A DNA stretch of 64,000 nucleotides from positions 62,001 to 126,000 of the forward strand of contig NZ_JAHLPV010000001.1 in the NCBI RefSeq assembly GCF_018918095.1, read 5' to 3'. Of the stretch, positions 27,690 to 34,978 are shown piece after piece. The stretch comes from Acetivibrio sp. MSJd-27. Its GTDB lineage: Bacteria; Bacillota; Clostridia; UMGS1840; HGM11507. The position numbers and the translations under genes were made by a program. Each line of letters opens with the position of its first letter. Positions within the stretch are counted from its first letter, which is position 1. The notes below the pieces were generated by a model, which worked only from the letters and a program-made list of their open reading frames with translations, searched no databases and was not told the origin of the DNA.

Positions 27690-27744
27690 CATCCTCTGGA
27701 TGCATTGATGTTTATGGATGGATATTCCGCAGCCGAATTCAAAG

Positions 27745-27781
27745 AGTGCCGCAAAAACTTTTATTCTTGCGGCACTTTATT
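27745..27781 (+). terminator. Terminator
   Basis: AGTGCCGCAA pairs with TTGCGGCACT, then TTATTGTTT. Confidence 0.8.
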
Positions 27782-27884
27782 GTTTGTCTATTTCGCATTG
27801 ATTTTACAGATAGAAACAGTTCATATAAGGATAAGAACGGCATTGTCTTCAAACCGTGATTTTAACGGAAGGAGTGTTCGCATT

Positions 27885-29105
27885 ATGCGCAGATCATCCC
27901 TATCTTTTCTTTTGATTGTCACACTGGTTACATCTTGCCTATCCCTCTCCGGCTGCGGAAAGGTAGATAGGGAATACCGGGCTTTTTATAACAGCCTTGT
28001 CAATAAAGACGGAAATTTCCGTTTTCGGGGAATGGAGCCTGGAACCAGTCAGAAGGATATCATTCAAATGGAGGGCATCGACGGGATAGAAGGCGAGGAT
28101 ATCACCTCCAAAGACAGCACTGGTCTTTTTCGCTGTCTCGTTCCGGTACAGTTCCCCTGCTTTTCTTTTGATCTGTATCGGGATTACAAAACGGCAACTC
28201 ATATCCCCTCACGGGACGGCGGAAGATTGGACGGATTTTTGACAAGCGGCAGCTACCTTGCCTTTTTTGAACAGGAAGAGGATTTCACGGCGGCATGCCG
28301 GCAGATTTCCGCCTTTCTGAAAGAGCATTTTCCAACGGGAACTTCCTTTGAAGGGCTGGATCAAATCCCGGAGCCGGAGCAGCGGATCCTCTCTCCTCAA
28401 TGGCAGACGGAGGCGGAGGACGGCAGCCGGCTTCTGGTCACCTTTCAAAACAGGGTTTCGCCGATAAATCCCAACCGTGCTCCTGCTTTCTGCTCCATTC
28501 GGATAGAGGTTTCCTATCAAAACCTCGCAGAGTCATCGATGGAAGACTATCAGGAATTTTATCAGGCTTTAAGCAATCGGGAGGGTAATTTCCGTTTCCG
28601 TGGAACAGAACCGGGACAGACCTATGAAGAACTGATCGCTTCCTTTGAAAAAGAGGGGTATGGAAAAGATGTGCTTACCCCCTTCGATCTTTTTGTCAGC
28701 TGCACCGTTCCGGACAGCTTCCCTTGCTTTGACTTTTCTCTATATAAAAGATATCATATGGATGAATCTTCCAACTCCATAAATGGTAAAACAGATTGGA
28801 CGACGAAGGATTCTTTGACGGGAGGATCGTATCTTTCCAGTTTCTATCGGGAAGAGGACTGGATTGCGGCATGCCGGCAGATCATTACCTTTCTGAAAGC
28901 AAAATTTCCGGGAGGAGTTTCCTTCGAAGAATTGGAACACACACCGGATCCTGAAAAATTAATGTCTCCGCAATGGGAAATAGAAGGAGCCGATGGAAGC
29001 AAGATTAGCGTTACCTTTCAAAATAAAAATATGGATCATCCTCTGAATAAAGCGCCGTCCACATGCTCTATCATGATCACAGTATATTACCGTAATATGA
29101 ATTAA
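27885..29105 (+). CDS. Two-domain lipoprotein of a locally duplicated family, copy 1
   Basis: 406 residues. The lipobox is LSLSGC, Cys24. Two copies of a domain of about 190 residues follow, each starting YRAFYNSLVNKDGNFRFRG or YQEFYQALSNREGNFRFRG and containing FPCFxFxLY, GSYL, an EEDxxAACRQIxxFLK helix, PQW and DGS...VTFQN. ATG 27885 follows GGAAGGAG; the open frame upstream from 27705 is an accident of the duplicated leader. Extracellular, function unknown. Flanked by its own terminators. Confidence 0.8.
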   Translation: MRRSSLSFLLIVTLVTSCLSLSGCGKVDREYRAFYNSLVNKDGNFRFRGMEPGTSQKDIIQMEGIDGIEGEDITSKDSTGLFRCLVPVQFPCFSFDLYRDYKTATHIPSRDGGRLDGFLTSGSYLAFFEQEEDFTAACRQISAFLKEHFPTGTSFEGLDQIPEPEQRILSPQWQTEAEDGSRLLVTFQNRVSPINPNRAPAFCSIRIEVSYQNLAESSMEDYQEFYQALSNREGNFRFRGTEPGQTYEELIASFEKEGYGKDVLTPFDLFVSCTVPDSFPCFDFSLYKRYHMDESSNSINGKTDWTTKDSLTGGSYLSSFYREEDWIAACRQIITFLKAKFPGGVSFEELEHTPDPEKLMSPQWEIEGADGSKISVTFQNKNMDHPLNKAPSTCSIMITVYYRNMN

Positions 29106-29110
29106 CGGCT

Positions 29111-29155
29111 TACAGCGTACTATGAAGCGAAAATTTCATAGTGCGCTGTACTTTT
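29111..29155 (+). terminator. Terminator between the two lipoprotein copies
   Basis: TACAGCG-TACTATGAA pairs with TTTCATAGTG-CGCTGTA, then CTTTT. Confidence 0.75.
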
Positions 29156-29244
29156 CATTGACTTTACAGATAGAAACAGTTCATATAAGGATAAGAACGG
29201 CATTGTCTTCAAACCGTGATTTTAACGGAAGGAGTGTTCGCATT

Positions 29245-30474
29245 ATGCGCAGAGCATCCCTATCTTTTCTTTTGATTGTCACATTGCTTTTCTCCTGCCT
29301 TTCCCTCTCGGGATGCGGAAAGGTGGACGGGGAATACCGGGCTTTTTATGACAGCCTTGTGAATAAAGACGGAAATTTCCGTTTTCGGGGCACGAATCCG
29401 GGGGACAGCCAGGACAGCATTTTTCAGGCAGAAGGGCTCAGCGGCACGATAGATGAGGATGTCAGTATTATGGACAGCACCGGCCTTTTCTACTGTTACC
29501 AGCCGGTACAGTTCCCCTGCTTTTCGTTCGATCTGTATCGGGATTACCGGACGCCGCTTCATACGCCTTCCACTGTAGATGATTTTAGATATAACAGTTC
29601 CATGACAAGCGGAAGCTATACCGCCTTTTTTGAACAGCAGGAGGAGTTTACGGCGGCGTGCGGACAAATCACTGCCTTTCTGAAAGAGCATTTTCCAAAG
29701 GGAACTTCCTTTGAAGCCCTGGAGCAAATCCCGGAACCGAAACAATTCATCTCCGCCCCCCAATGGCAGGCGGAGGCAAGGGACGGCAGCCAGCTTCTGG
29801 TCACCTTTCAGAATAAAATTTCTCCTCAGTCGAATAACAAAAAGCATATGGTATCCCAGATTCCTCCCTGCGGTTTTATCCGGCTGGAGGTTTCCTACCG
29901 CAAGCTTACGGAATCTTTCACAAAAGATTACCAGGAATTTTATCAGGCTCTGGTTAACTCGGAGGGCAATTTCCGCTTCTGCGGTACCGAATCGGGACAA
30001 ACCTATGAGGCGCTGGCCGCCTCTTTTGAAGAAAAGGGATACGGGAGAGACGCTCTTGCCCCCTTTAGCGATATGTTTCGCAGCAAAATTCTTGACATTT
30101 TCCCCTGTTTTCCTTTTTTCTTCTCCGAAAATTACTGGATGGATACCTCCGTCAACCTGGAAAACGGCAAAGCGAAATCACAGACGGAGGATTCTCTGTC
30201 CGGCGGATGGTACACCAGCTTTTTCTATCGCGAGGAGGACTGGGCGGAAGCATGCGGGCAAATAACCGATTTTTTGAAAGTAATGTTTCCGGAAAGGGGA
30301 TCCTTTGAAACTCTGTATCATCTTCCCGAAACGGAAGAATGGAATGAGGAATGGCGGGTGGAAGCCCCCGATGGAAGTCAGCTTTCCGTCGATTTTCAAA
30401 ATAAGGAACGGTATTATCATCCTTATTTGAACTTTATAGAAAGTTCCCGGATTCAAATCACGGTGTTCAATTGA
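29245..30474 (+). CDS. Two-domain lipoprotein of a locally duplicated family, copy 2
   Basis: 409 residues, parallel to the preceding gene: MRRASLSFLLIVTLLFSCLS with lipobox LSLSGC, first domain YRAFYDSLVNKDGNFRFRG, second domain YQEFYQALVNSEGNFRFCG. The second domain has lost the final RG pair. The roughly 85 bp upstream are nearly identical to those before copy 1. ATG 29245 follows GGAAGGAG. Duplicated with its leader, then diverged. Confidence 0.8.
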   Translation: MRRASLSFLLIVTLLFSCLSLSGCGKVDGEYRAFYDSLVNKDGNFRFRGTNPGDSQDSIFQAEGLSGTIDEDVSIMDSTGLFYCYQPVQFPCFSFDLYRDYRTPLHTPSTVDDFRYNSSMTSGSYTAFFEQQEEFTAACGQITAFLKEHFPKGTSFEALEQIPEPKQFISAPQWQAEARDGSQLLVTFQNKISPQSNNKKHMVSQIPPCGFIRLEVSYRKLTESFTKDYQEFYQALVNSEGNFRFCGTESGQTYEALAASFEEKGYGRDALAPFSDMFRSKILDIFPCFPFFFSENYWMDTSVNLENGKAKSQTEDSLSGGWYTSFFYREEDWAEACGQITDFLKVMFPERGSFETLYHLPETEEWNEEWRVEAPDGSQLSVDFQNKERYYHPYLNFIESSRIQITVFN

Positions 30475-30584: not shown

Positions 30585-32411
30585 TTACCGCAGCACCTGC
30601 ATCGCCGCTTCCTCCGCAAACTGTTTGGAATACAGCTCAAAGTAGGCGCCCCGTTTTTTCATCAGCTCCATATGCGTTCCCTGTTCGACAATTCTGCCGT
30701 CCTTCACCACCAGAATCAAATCCGCTTGGCGGATGGTGGAAAGACGGTGAGCGATCAGGAAAGAGGTACGGTTTTTCAGAAGGTTTCCGATGGCGTTTTG
30801 GATCAGCTGTTCGGTCTGCGTGTCGATGGAGGAAGTGGCCTCGTCGAGCACAAAGATCCGCGGATCCGCCAGCACCGCTCTGGCAAAGGACACAAGCTGC
30901 TTTTCGCCGGTGGAAAGACAGTCTCCCCCCTCGCCTACATCGCTGTCATAGCCGTTTTCCAGGTTCGCCACCACCGTATCGGCAGAGACGCTTTTGGCAA
31001 CCCGTTCGATATCCTCATCGGTTGCTTCCAGGTTCCCATAGCGGATATTTTCCCGCAGGGTACCGGAAAACAGATGGGGATTCTGGAGAACATAACCGAT
31101 GTTGCTGTGAAGCCAAAGCTGGGAGCGCTCCCGGTAATCCCTGCCGTCAATCAGCACGCGTCCGCTGGTTGGTTCAAAGAAACGGCAAGCCAGATTCACC
31201 AGAGTACTCTTTCCCGCGCCGGTCTCCCCCACGATAGCCACATTGGTTCCCGCCGGAATTTTCAGGTTAAAGTGCTCCAGCACATACTCGTTGCCGTCCG
31301 GATACTTGAAGGAAACATCTTCAAATTCGATATCGCCCTTGATGGGTTCCCAGTTCTCCTTTTTGGGATGAAAGGAATCCCCGTATTTTTCGATCACCTC
31401 CGGTGTGTCGGTGATCTCCTCGGGCTTTTCCAGCAGACCGGAAACCCGCTCGATATTCGCCTGGGTCGCGATGACATTGGAGAAGGTTCTCGCCAGCTGT
31501 TGAATCGGCTCAAAGATACCCACCGCATAGGAGATAAAAGCGGAGAAGGTGCCGAATTGAAGCGCCTGATTCATCACCAGATATCCTCCTCTTGCCAGCA
31601 CCAGCGCCGTGGCGATGGAGCTGAAAAACAGGATGGAGGGAATGTAGATAGCGCTCAGCTTATAGCCATGGAGCATGGTTTGATACATTTCCTTGGATTC
31701 CTTCTGAAATTCCCTCAGGTTCTTTTCCTCGATAACCAGCGTTTTGGAGGTTTTCGCCCCCACGATTCCCTCATTGTACGCGCCGGAGATCCGGGAATTC
31801 ATTTTCCGGATCCGGCGGTTATTGTTGAGCAGTTTATTCTGAAAGAACACCGTGAGGATTGCGATCAAAGGCACCACAACAGCAATCAGAAGCGCCAGCT
31901 TCCCATTGAGCAGGAACATGGAGATGAATACGCCGACCACATAGGCCAACGCCCACAAAATGTCCACCAAGCCCCAGGCAATCATACTGCCGATCCGCCC
32001 GGTATCGCTCATCACCCTCGCCAGCAGGTAGCCAACCGAATTTACATTGTAGAAGGAAAGGGAAAGCTTTTGCAGATGGACAAAGCTCGCCCGCTTCAGA
32101 TCCCGCCCCACCTGCATCTCCACGCTCATCGCCTGGCGGGAGAAGACAATGACGATCCCCGTCTGTATCAGTACCAGCGCGGCATAGAACGCGATAAAGA
32201 AGCCAAGCTGTGAAAGGCTCCCCTCCATGATAAAGCGGTCCACCGCATACCGCTGAAACAACGGGAAAATGACATCAATCCCCGCCGACCCCAGCATCAG
32301 AAGCACAATGGACAGCAACAGCCAGCGGTAAGGCTTGAAAAACGGCAGCATTTTTGCCCAAATTTTTATGTCAAGGGATTTTTTTGACTGCGTTTCCTCA
32401 TAGAACGCCAT
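30585..32411 (-). CDS. ABC exporter subunit (permease-ATPase), catalytic half
   Basis: 608 residues. Six membrane segments, then an ATPase domain with Walker A GETGAGKST near residue 400 and Walker B IFVLDEATSSID near 520 with the catalytic Glu. Its signature motif is LSTGEKQL rather than LSGGQ. Paired with the next upstream gene (1-bp overlap) as a heterodimeric exporter of the BmrCD/LmrCD/TM287-288 type; this subunit corresponds to the one with the intact Walker B. Such pairs export drugs or lipids. Regulated by the attenuator at 34404-34551. Confidence 0.92.
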   Translation of the reverse strand: MAFYEETQSKKSLDIKIWAKMLPFFKPYRWLLLSIVLLMLGSAGIDVIFPLFQRYAVDRFIMEGSLSQLGFFIAFYAALVLIQTGIVIVFSRQAMSVEMQVGRDLKRASFVHLQKLSLSFYNVNSVGYLLARVMSDTGRIGSMIAWGLVDILWALAYVVGVFISMFLLNGKLALLIAVVVPLIAILTVFFQNKLLNNNRRIRKMNSRISGAYNEGIVGAKTSKTLVIEEKNLREFQKESKEMYQTMLHGYKLSAIYIPSILFFSSIATALVLARGGYLVMNQALQFGTFSAFISYAVGIFEPIQQLARTFSNVIATQANIERVSGLLEKPEEITDTPEVIEKYGDSFHPKKENWEPIKGDIEFEDVSFKYPDGNEYVLEHFNLKIPAGTNVAIVGETGAGKSTLVNLACRFFEPTSGRVLIDGRDYRERSQLWLHSNIGYVLQNPHLFSGTLRENIRYGNLEATDEDIERVAKSVSADTVVANLENGYDSDVGEGGDCLSTGEKQLVSFARAVLADPRIFVLDEATSSIDTQTEQLIQNAIGNLLKNRTSFLIAHRLSTIRQADLILVVKDGRIVEQGTHMELMKKRGAYFELYSKQFAEEAAMQVLR

Positions 32412-34240
32412 TATTCTCCCTCCTTTTCTGTCAGCAGCTTATCCTGCTGGTTCATCTGAATATCATAAATCTTTTTATAGATTCCATCCTGTTTCACCAA
32501 TTGCTCATGGGTGCCCATTTCCTCGATCTGTCCGTTTTCCATGACCAGAATCTGATCCGCCTGCATCAAGGTGGTGATGCGGTGTGATATCAGGATCACG
32601 GTGGAATCGCCCAGATTATCCTGCAGGGCGCGGCGGATCTGGGAATCCGTCTCGGTATCCACTGCGGACAGGGAATCGTCAAATATCATGATGGGGGCTT
32701 TCTGCATCAGCATGCGGGCGATGGCTACCCTCTGCTTCTGGCCGCCGGACAGGGTGACCCCCCGCTCCCCGACAATGGTGTCGTAGCCGTTGGCGAAATT
32801 CAGAATGGAGCGATCCACACAGGCAACCCGTGCCATCCGCCGGATATCCTCCTCGGAGGCTTCCGGACAGCAGACGGCAATATTCTCCCGAATGGTTTTG
32901 GAGAACAGGAACGGCTCCTGAAGCACCATCCCGATATTGCCGCGCAGCCAATCCCGGCGGATATGCCGGATGTCCACACCGCCGATGGTGATCCTTCCGC
33001 AGCCGTCCGGCAAATCATAGAGCCGGTTCAGCAGATGCATCAAAGTGGACTTTCCAGAACCTGTGCCGCCCAGAATGGCAAAGGTTGAGCCCTTCCTGAT
33101 GGTAAAATCAATATTTTTAAGGACTGGCTTAGCCCCCTCATAGGTATAGCTGACATGCTCGAAAACGATATCCTCGGTGAGCGGCGGGGTGATATCGTCC
33201 GGATTGTCCCGTTCCTCCTCCGCCTGAAAGATATAGTTGATACGGGACAGGGATACCCCTGTTTTACTCATCTCGGAAAGAATCCGTCCCAGACCGCGGA
33301 TCGGCCAGATAAGAGTCGTATTGTAAGAGATGAAAACCAGGAATTCTCCCAGCGTGATATTCCCGTGAACCGTCTCCACCGTGCCCAGGGCAATGATGGT
33401 GAGAATCTGCAGGCCGGTGATCAAATCGCCGATGCCCCAGTAAGAGCCCAGCACATAGCCCAGCTTAATCCACAGGTTGGAAAACCGGTTATTCTTCTCA
33501 TCAAACCGATCAATTTCATATTTTTCCCGCCCAAAGGCCCTTACTACCCGAACGCCCGTCAAATTCTCCTGTACCCCTGCGGAGAGCTCCCCCTCCGCCT
33601 CGTCCGCCACCTTGAACTTCTTGCCAATTTTGGCGTAAAAAATGCCGGAATACGCGATGATAATGGGAATGAATACCAGCGCCGTCAAAGACATTTTCAC
33701 GTTCATGGTGAACATGATGCTAAGGGCAAACACAATCAAAAAAATGGTGCGTATGATATCCAAAAATTGATTGGCAATAAAGTTGCGGATTAGATCCACA
33801 TCCATCGTGCACCGCTGGATGATATCCCCCGTCTGATGCCGCACATGCCACCGAAACGGCAGCTTCTGAATATGGCTGTAAAGCGCGTCCCGCATCCTGC
33901 GGATCATGCCTTCCGCACCTTTCGCGTTGATGGTGATCCGGATGTATGTGCAAAGCCCCGACAGAATCGAAAACAGCAGGATAAATCCTGCACACCATAG
34001 AAGATTCGTCCGGAACAGCTCCCGCACAGCGTTGAGATCCACTTTTTCCGCAAAGAACGCCGGCAGGGAAAACGGTTTGTCGCCTATCACCGAGTCAACC
34101 GTAATCCGGATGACCTGAGGCGTTAGAAAATCAAACACTGTGCCAAACATAGAGGCGATAAACGCAATCACAAAATAGTGTATTTTTCCTTTGGAAAACC
34201 GCAGAAGCAAACCGACACGCGGAAATTTCTGCTGAATCAT
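32411..34240 (-). CDS. ABC exporter subunit (permease-ATPase), degenerate half
   Basis: 609 residues. Membrane domain, then Walker A GGTGSGKST near residue 395, canonical signature LSGGQKQR, and Walker B IMIFDDSLSAVD in which Asp replaces the catalytic Glu. That defect, matched by the altered signature of the partner, predicts one consensus and one degenerate ATP site. ATG 34240 follows GGAGGGG. First structural gene after a long leader with a terminator and a leader peptide. Confidence 0.92.
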   Translation of the reverse strand: MIQQKFPRVGLLLRFSKGKIHYFVIAFIASMFGTVFDFLTPQVIRITVDSVIGDKPFSLPAFFAEKVDLNAVRELFRTNLLWCAGFILLFSILSGLCTYIRITINAKGAEGMIRRMRDALYSHIQKLPFRWHVRHQTGDIIQRCTMDVDLIRNFIANQFLDIIRTIFLIVFALSIMFTMNVKMSLTALVFIPIIIAYSGIFYAKIGKKFKVADEAEGELSAGVQENLTGVRVVRAFGREKYEIDRFDEKNNRFSNLWIKLGYVLGSYWGIGDLITGLQILTIIALGTVETVHGNITLGEFLVFISYNTTLIWPIRGLGRILSEMSKTGVSLSRINYIFQAEEERDNPDDITPPLTEDIVFEHVSYTYEGAKPVLKNIDFTIRKGSTFAILGGTGSGKSTLMHLLNRLYDLPDGCGRITIGGVDIRHIRRDWLRGNIGMVLQEPFLFSKTIRENIAVCCPEASEEDIRRMARVACVDRSILNFANGYDTIVGERGVTLSGGQKQRVAIARMLMQKAPIMIFDDSLSAVDTETDSQIRRALQDNLGDSTVILISHRITTLMQADQILVMENGQIEEMGTHEQLVKQDGIYKKIYDIQMNQQDKLLTEKEGE

Positions 34241-34403: not shown

Positions 34404-34434
34404 AAAAAAGCGCCCCCGAACCTTCAGAGGCGCT
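34404..34434 (-). terminator. Attenuator terminator in the ABC exporter leader
   Basis: On the minus strand AGCGCCTCTGA pairs with TCGGGGGCGCT (eleven pairs with G-T), followed by TTTTTT. The 5' arm CCTCTGAA is complementary to TTCAGAGG inside the upstream leader ORF, so an antiterminator can form. Confidence 0.8.
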
Positions 34435-34470
34435 GTCTGTACCCTTTCTTTGGACGGCAAAGAAGCCCGT

Positions 34471-34551
34471 CTATCTGGACGCAGGCAAAATCCCTCTGAA
34501 TGGTATCTGGCTATTGCCATAAAAATTACCGTGATTCATTCTCTTTTTCAT
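34471..34551 (-). CDS. 26-residue leader peptide controlling the ABC exporter
   Basis: ATG 34551 lies 8 nt after AAAGGAGG. The peptide begins MKKRMNHGNFYG and ends GILPASR, stop TAG at 34471. It is transcribed from the promoter at 34609-34638 and ends 37 nt before the terminator hairpin. Codons 18-20 (TTC AGA GGG) contain the 8-nt antiterminator strand, so ribosome position would decide between the two RNA folds. The arrangement parallels BmrB before bmrCD in Bacillus subtilis (established knowledge); this peptide itself I do not recognise. Confidence 0.8.
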   Translation of the reverse strand: MKKRMNHGNFYGNSQIPFRGILPASR

Positions 34552-34608
34552 TTTGCCTGCCTCCTTTCTTTCCAAATTTGTATCTTTTTCTATCAAGAAC
34601 GTGTGGCT

Positions 34609-34638
34609 ATTCTAACATAGATATGCTTTCCATGTCAA
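34609..34638 (-). promoter_or_regulatory. Promoter of leader peptide and ABC exporter
   Basis: On the minus strand: TTGACA, 18-bp spacer, TAGAAT preceded by TGT. Confidence 0.75.
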
Positions 34639-34705: not shown

Positions 34706-34960
34706 TTACTCTTCTCTAGGACTAGGCGAAAGTCCCCTGAAGAAGTCTTCATAATTGACGTTAAGAATTTGTTTAAACAATATGAGGTCACTGACAAAAA
34801 TATTTCTTCTGCCTTGTTCAATATGAGCATATTGAGCACGTGACATAGAACGGCCTGCTAACTGTAATTTAACCGCCATATCGTTTTGGGATAAATTTTT
34901 CTTTTCTCTCAATTTCTTTAAATTAGCACCAATATTAACGTCCTGTAAGAATTTTTGCAT
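34706..34960 (-). CDS. XRE-family HTH transcriptional regulator
   Basis: 84 residues, essentially one Cro/CI helix-turn-helix: IGANLKKLREKKNLSQNDMAVKLQLAGRSMSRAQYAHIEQGRR. ATG 34960 follows GGAGGGG. Divergent from the 35115 gene; the intergenic region has two GATAC...GTATC palindromes, one close to its own ribosome site, so autoregulation is likely. Base composition is more AT-rich than neighbours. It ends 68 bp before the ABC leader promoter and need not control it. Confidence 0.9.
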   Translation of the reverse strand: MQKFLQDVNIGANLKKLREKKNLSQNDMAVKLQLAGRSMSRAQYAHIEQGRRNIFVSDLILFKQILNVNYEDFFRGLSPSPREE

Positions 34961-34978
34961 GATTAACCCCTCCATCAA

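Follow-up and report, generated by a model that had tools for sequence, protein, structure and literature searches.

A probable ribosome-gated transcription attenuator upstream of a heterodimeric ABC exporter in Acetivibrio sp. MSJd-27

The DNA analysed here is a stretch of 64,000 nucleotides from Acetivibrio sp. MSJd-27 (contig NZ_JAHLPV010000001.1, positions 62,001 to 126,000), hereafter called the window, the numbering of which is used throughout. On its minus strand, two adjacent genes encode half-transporters whose translations indicate a heterodimeric ABC exporter with one degenerate nucleotide site. Subunit 1 (32411..34240, 609 aa) has the Walker B sequence FDD, in which Glu is replaced by Asp, and subunit 2 (30585..32411, 608 aa) has the canonical LDE together with the signature LSTGEKQL. 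By similarity, both subunits are general multidrug-type exporters. They show no specific likeness to BmrC and BmrD: about 300 bits separate neither YheI nor YheH from other bacterial exporters such as Sav1866 or TM287/288, which match equally well. Two adjacent related genes on the plus strand (27705-29105 and 29122-30474) encode putative lipoproteins, each with an internal NxxGNFRF repeat, and are probably tandem duplicates.

Upstream of the exporter lies a sigma-70-type promoter, TTGACA-18-TAGAAT (minus strand; TTGACA begins at 34638 and TAGAAT ends at 34609), which matches the consensus at 11 of 12 positions. When the minus strand was scanned between 34200 and 35000 for sites of this type, only this promoter was found, with none between the terminator and the exporter gene. 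Just 5' of it is an inverted repeat, TTACAG-N18-CTGTAA (34700-34671, minus strand), possibly an operator, which is adjoined by a small XRE-type regulator gene (34706-34978). Downstream of the promoter, a strong Shine-Dalgarno (SD) sequence, AAAGGAGG (34567-34560), precedes an ORF of 26 codons that runs from an ATG at 34551 to a stop at 34471, with the putative translation MKKRMNHGNFYGNSQIPFRGILPASR. An ORF with its own ribosome site is thus present inside the 5' UTR of the operon, as in attenuators of the bmrB kind.

The leader ORF is followed by an intrinsic terminator, an 11-bp hairpin (34434-34409) with a T6 tract ending at 34404. This structure is predicted to have an energy of -19.1 kcal/mol (z -5.1), and none of 200 shuffled sequences was equally stable. 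Additionally, we found a second terminator-like hairpin that had been missed previously (34390-34329, followed by T7 to 34321; -26.6 kcal/mol). Since 14 of 200 shuffles were as stable as this one (z -1.7), its action as a terminator is uncertain.

Part of the leader ORF is complementary to the first terminator. The sequence TTCAGAGG (34500-34493, codons 18-20) is an exact 8-nt complement of CCTCTGAA (34430-34423), and the helix is lengthened by ACC/GGT across a one-base bulge. The two arms of this candidate antiterminator are hence ACC-A-TTCAGAGG (segment 2b; 34504-34493, codons 16-20) and CCTCTGAAGGT (segment 3; 34430-34420), the latter comprising the 5' arm of the terminator together with its loop. 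An 8-nt Watson-Crick match recurred in 1.3% of dinucleotide-shuffled leaders and in 3.3% of synonymous recodings, and when G-U pairs and duplex energies were taken into account the p value was 0.06. Taken alone, this pairing is suggestive only. Nevertheless, it provides, by computation, an antiterminator that uses the leader ORF and is mutually exclusive with the terminator. A preliminary description of this DNA had already listed the promoter, the 26-codon ORF with a good ribosome site, the terminator with six T and the 8-nt complementarity, and each of these was borne out by the present analysis.

The strongest element of the leader, which that description overlooked, involves the ribosome-binding site itself. 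Folding and duplex tests pair segment 1 (34564-34550), composed of the SD, the spacer and the start codon, with segment 2a (34491-34477), which lies at the end of the ORF (codons 21-25), to give a helix of 14 bp. Its core is an exact 11-nt complement between GCAGGCAAAAT, which covers the spacer after the SD and the start codon (34560-34550), and ATTTTGCCTGC (34491-34481), to which GGA/UCC is added. Without a ribosome, this helix has a pairing probability of 0.99, and the duplex p value is 0.002. The leader hairpin as a whole (-31.9 kcal/mol, z -5.0) was not equalled in stability by any of 200 shuffles. Under synonymous recoding, its total energy alone was reached by 113 of 1000 sequences; the 11-nt complement gave a p value of 0.026, and both exact complements occurred jointly in only 2 of 4000 recodings.

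The presence of this helix therefore gives the leader the form of a classical four-segment attenuator, in which segment 1 (SD and start codon), segment 2 (the end of the ORF), segment 3 (the terminator 5' arm) and segment 4 (the terminator 3' arm) can be arranged as 1:2, 2:3 and 3:4. As with the anti-antiterminator of vmlR, the hairpin at the start of the uORF is one that a ribosome standing on the first codons would open. The SD/start-codon helix, which the earlier model did not include, shifts the likely decisive position of the ribosome to these first codons.

We modelled this by placing the P site of a ribosome codon by codon on an RNA that ends with the 5' arm of the terminator. With no ribosome, P(1:2) was 0.99 and P(2:3) was 0. 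A ribosome whose P site was at any of codons 1-3 raised P(2:3) to between 0.86 and 0.93, and one at codon 4 gave 0.08. From codon 5 onward the outcome depended on whether the RNA behind the ribosome was allowed to pair across it: if so, P(2:3) was about 0, because 1:2 closes behind the ribosome, and if such pairing was forbidden, P(2:3) was 0.86 to 0.94 at codons 5-13 and 0 from codon 15. Both versions of the model agree that either no translation or full translation leads to termination and that an early-held ribosome leads to read-through. At equilibrium the completed terminator outcompeted 2:3 in every case, and the decision must therefore be a kinetic one.

We consider it likely that transcription of the downstream heterodimeric ABC exporter is governed by a ribosome-gated attenuator in the region 34605-34404. 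From what was computed, namely the parts, helices that exclude one another and the recurrence of these features in relatives (see below), we infer translation of the leader, switching, the position of arrest and the involvement of a drug, as follows. When no ribosome is present, 1:2 would pair, locking in segment 2b, and terminator 3:4 would form. A ribosome that translates to the end of the leader would cover segment 2, and again the terminator would form. A ribosome held on the first codons, however, would cover segment 1 and so leave 1:2 open, allowing 2:3 to pair and polymerase to continue into the exporter genes. In nature, the cue would come from an antibiotic that acts on the ribosome and halts it during initiation or early elongation. 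What is sensed is probably the holding of a ribosome on the first codons, with the peptide itself largely free to vary.

For the exporter to be transcribed, the second hairpin would likewise have to be bypassed. Once freed, the 3' arm of the first terminator may disarm this hairpin too, by capturing its 5' arm. Indeed, the terminator 3' arm together with its U-tract can pair with that 5' arm in a possible relay hairpin, 4:5 (34417-34385; -14.5 kcal/mol, z -2.4; equalled in stability by 5 of 200 shuffles), and when 4:5 is included the antiterminated fold coincides with the global minimum as soon as the RNA extends to about 34380. We put forward a relay from the first to the second terminator via 4:5 as a hypothesis drawn from this folding.

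By analogy, our best reading is that the logic of this attenuator would resemble that of bmrB-bmrCD and vmlR of Bacillus subtilis. Induction of bmrCD by 50S inhibitors requires both translation of the bmrB leader and binding of the drug to the ribosome (PMC4191407), and the two systems share a leader ORF, a terminator, an antiterminator and a predicted anti-antiterminator in front of a heterodimeric ABC multidrug exporter (PMC4191407). They differ in that bmrB has 53 codons, a GTG start and a terminator inside the ORF (PMC4191407), whereas the leader in the window has 26 codons and an ATG start, its terminator lies 36 nt past the stop codon, and it is followed by a second hairpin. No similarity between the two peptides is evident. 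In vmlR, a stem-loop containing the uORF is the anti-antiterminator, and a ribosome arrested at the start blocks the stem-loop and permits the antiterminator to form; the uORF peptides MIN, MDN and MDK all work (PMC9226507). The vmlR uORF is, however, only three codons long, with an SD that is single-stranded ahead of the hairpin, and its leader has a further SD-sequestering hairpin and controls an ABC-F protein (PMC9226507), whereas in the window the SD and start codon themselves form an arm of the hairpin and the controlled gene product is an exporter. A terminator, antiterminator and anti-antiterminator are also predicted in front of the heterodimeric exporter genes patAB of Streptococcus pneumoniae, for which the portions of the published account drawn on here name fluoroquinolones and DNA damage as inducers, treat the signal as not established and, in contrast to the situation in the window, invoke no leader ORF (PMC4319486). 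Finally, the 1:2, 2:3 and 3:4 logic is that of trp-type attenuators, from which the window differs in having neither a regulatory codon run nor biosynthetic genes.

We gathered 78 exporter loci, 59 of which have at least 150 nt of upstream sequence, and scored the upstream regions mechanically for a short ORF with an ATG and an SD, followed by a terminator. Such an arrangement was present in 25 of the 59 regions, including that of the window. With the window excluded, the frequency was 24/58, compared with 5/128 genes of the window's own genome, the single genome (sampled over 400 kb) from which the background rate comes (Fisher p 5e-10). Among shuffled upstream regions, 24 of 1180 contained an SD-led ORF and a terminator. 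The leader peptides of the relatives belong to many unrelated, clade-specific types; indeed, in a first tree of 33 sequences, each of the three leader types with several members corresponded to one supported clade. The exporters nearest to that of the window (64 to 69% identical) had no detectable leader, none of this type, or upstream DNA that was unreadable, which argues that the window's leader was either acquired separately or has diverged beyond recognition.

Pairing between the SD/start region and the end of the leader also recurs. At p<=0.05 it was found in 15 of the 25 leaders but in just 3 of the 128 ordinary genes and 3 of the 77 start sites of exporters; at p<=0.01 the counts were 9, 1 and 0, respectively. 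Related leaders are not independent, so that 25 overstates the sample and a test by type is fairer; combined over the 13 leader types, p was about 3e-10. Pairing of the SD/start with a later part of the leader is seen in the window and in loci L026, L042, L045, L046/L053, L047, L082, L083, L085, L099, L101 and L105, and, by inspection, the SD-to-start sequence covaries with its partner within types (L045 versus L105, L026 versus L082). Among the relatives, L026 (11 nt) and L045 stand out for strong complementarity of the 2:3 kind, and L029 and L047 reach significance, but several others have little or none of it (combined p 0.02 over 13 types). In one genus, the EVF(H) leaders lack both helices and may operate in another way.

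That related pumps carry this design although their leader peptides are unrelated suggests sensing of ribosome position rather than of the peptide; if the RNA does work in this way, the unrelated peptides in front of homologous pumps would be accounted for. The peptide of the window itself has no recognisable kin. The pattern GNFYG-x4-PFRGI had no match in 84,980 genomes (a set from which the window's own or very near genomes may have been left out), and searches at the protein level, which covered about 99 relatives and some 390 genomes of the class, yielded no credible homologue. A plasmid search likewise found none. In viral contigs nine loci were retrieved, of which those inspected were open coding frames or stop-containing frames with no leader features. 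Weak matches in relatives (L003-L013, L059 and L060) lay inside other genes or lacked SD, terminator and exporter alike. One of them, in genome G095 (L006), combines GNFYG-x5-FRG with a hairpin downstream, yet it has neither an SD nor a usable start codon nearby, and some 40 matches with E-values like its own would be expected by chance. By these searches the leader peptide appears to be an orphan, and the claim that GNFYGN...PFRGILP is conserved and forms the sensing part is not supported. Consequently, the window's own leader offers no covariation of its own. The earlier proposal of an attenuator working like bmrB-bmrCD thus stands as a structural prediction of a translated leader, an antiterminator and a terminator, with leader plus terminator enriched among relatives, but without the peptide as sensor. 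A macrolide '+X+' arrest at MKKR, which would fit a P site at codon 3, was set aside as speculation, the motif being missing from the other leaders.

Peptide-specific arrest was nonetheless the reading originally offered, with HGNFYG (codons 7-12) stalling a drug-bound ribosome at about codons 8-12 and leaving segment 2b free. In the model without pairing across the ribosome, P sites at codons 5-13 do give the antiterminator the advantage as long as the terminator is unfinished, and the energies come closest to balance at codons 8-9. If segment 1 re-pairs behind the ribosome, however, stalls from codon 5 are of no help, and with a peptide that is found nowhere else and many unrelated peptides before related exporters we regard this reading as unlikely. 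A leader that gauges translation in general (initiation rate, charged tRNA or a ppGpp-linked slowdown) rather than a drug is a little less plausible still. Any early pause would trigger the architecture, and in bmrB rare codons increase basal read-through (PMC4191407). Rare-codon enrichment is not supported for the window's leader, however, as its codon usage is ordinary (44th percentile among gene starts); it also has no run of codons for a single amino acid of the sort that marks amino acid biosynthesis leaders, and the genes controlled encode an exporter and not a biosynthetic pathway.

The hairpins might instead be ordinary terminators that shield the exporter from read-through of the XRE-type gene, with a short ORF present by chance. 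By the mechanical criteria, a short ORF and terminator do occur in about 4 to 6% of the genome's upstream regions. Yet a near-consensus promoter separates the XRE-type gene from the leader, which places the terminator in a 5' UTR, no further promoter was found before the exporter, and chance would also have to supply two mutually exclusive complements and the enrichment among relatives; we judge this explanation improbable. Least credible, to the point of being very improbable, is an RNA switch that binds a protein or small molecule, with the leader untranslated. The strong secondary structure would suit it, and no family has more candidate attenuators than the ABC transporters, with some of these candidates thought to be riboswitches (PMC2965389). 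In contrast, Rfam models matched only one tRNA in the window, and no T-box or riboswitch family, and the inclusion of an SD and start codon within the switching helix in many unrelated relatives points to the ribosome.

A wider, and much more tentative, possibility is a clostridial class of ABC-exporter attenuators whose switching arm consists of the ribosome-binding site and start codon of the leader itself. In such a class an early-held ribosome would be sensed and the peptide would be free, with a tandem-terminator relay in the window. If this is true, the drug-inducible pumps of gut Clostridia would use a simple, evolvable switch that reads the position of the first ribosome and not the peptide. 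Such a switch would account for the unrelated appearance of leader peptides in front of homologous pumps and for the failure of searches by peptide similarity to find them, and pairing of the SD/start codon with the leader end, followed by a terminator, would be a structural signature by which more could be found. It also bears on the question of whether certain ABC transporter genes repeatedly attract attenuators (PMC2965389).

Several features of the related leaders were noted in passing. Loci L017-L021, from one genus, have a conserved leader of 11-12 aa (MxxKISEVFHx), followed by conserved sequence and a terminator, with no SD/leader-end helix, and are possibly a different type of attenuator. 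The leaders of L026, L082, L083 and L085 have a common (D/N)H(G/V)LP(M/I/V)P motif, the codons of which pair with the SD/start region and, in the case of L026, additionally with the terminator; this group has tandem terminators, GGCCATGGGTAAT...CCTGTGGTTTTT and a second one. Finally, a (M/R)GMF..PS core is common to the leaders of L045 and L105, which belong to different families; as their SD spacer and its pairing partner are altered, they are a good test pair for covariation.
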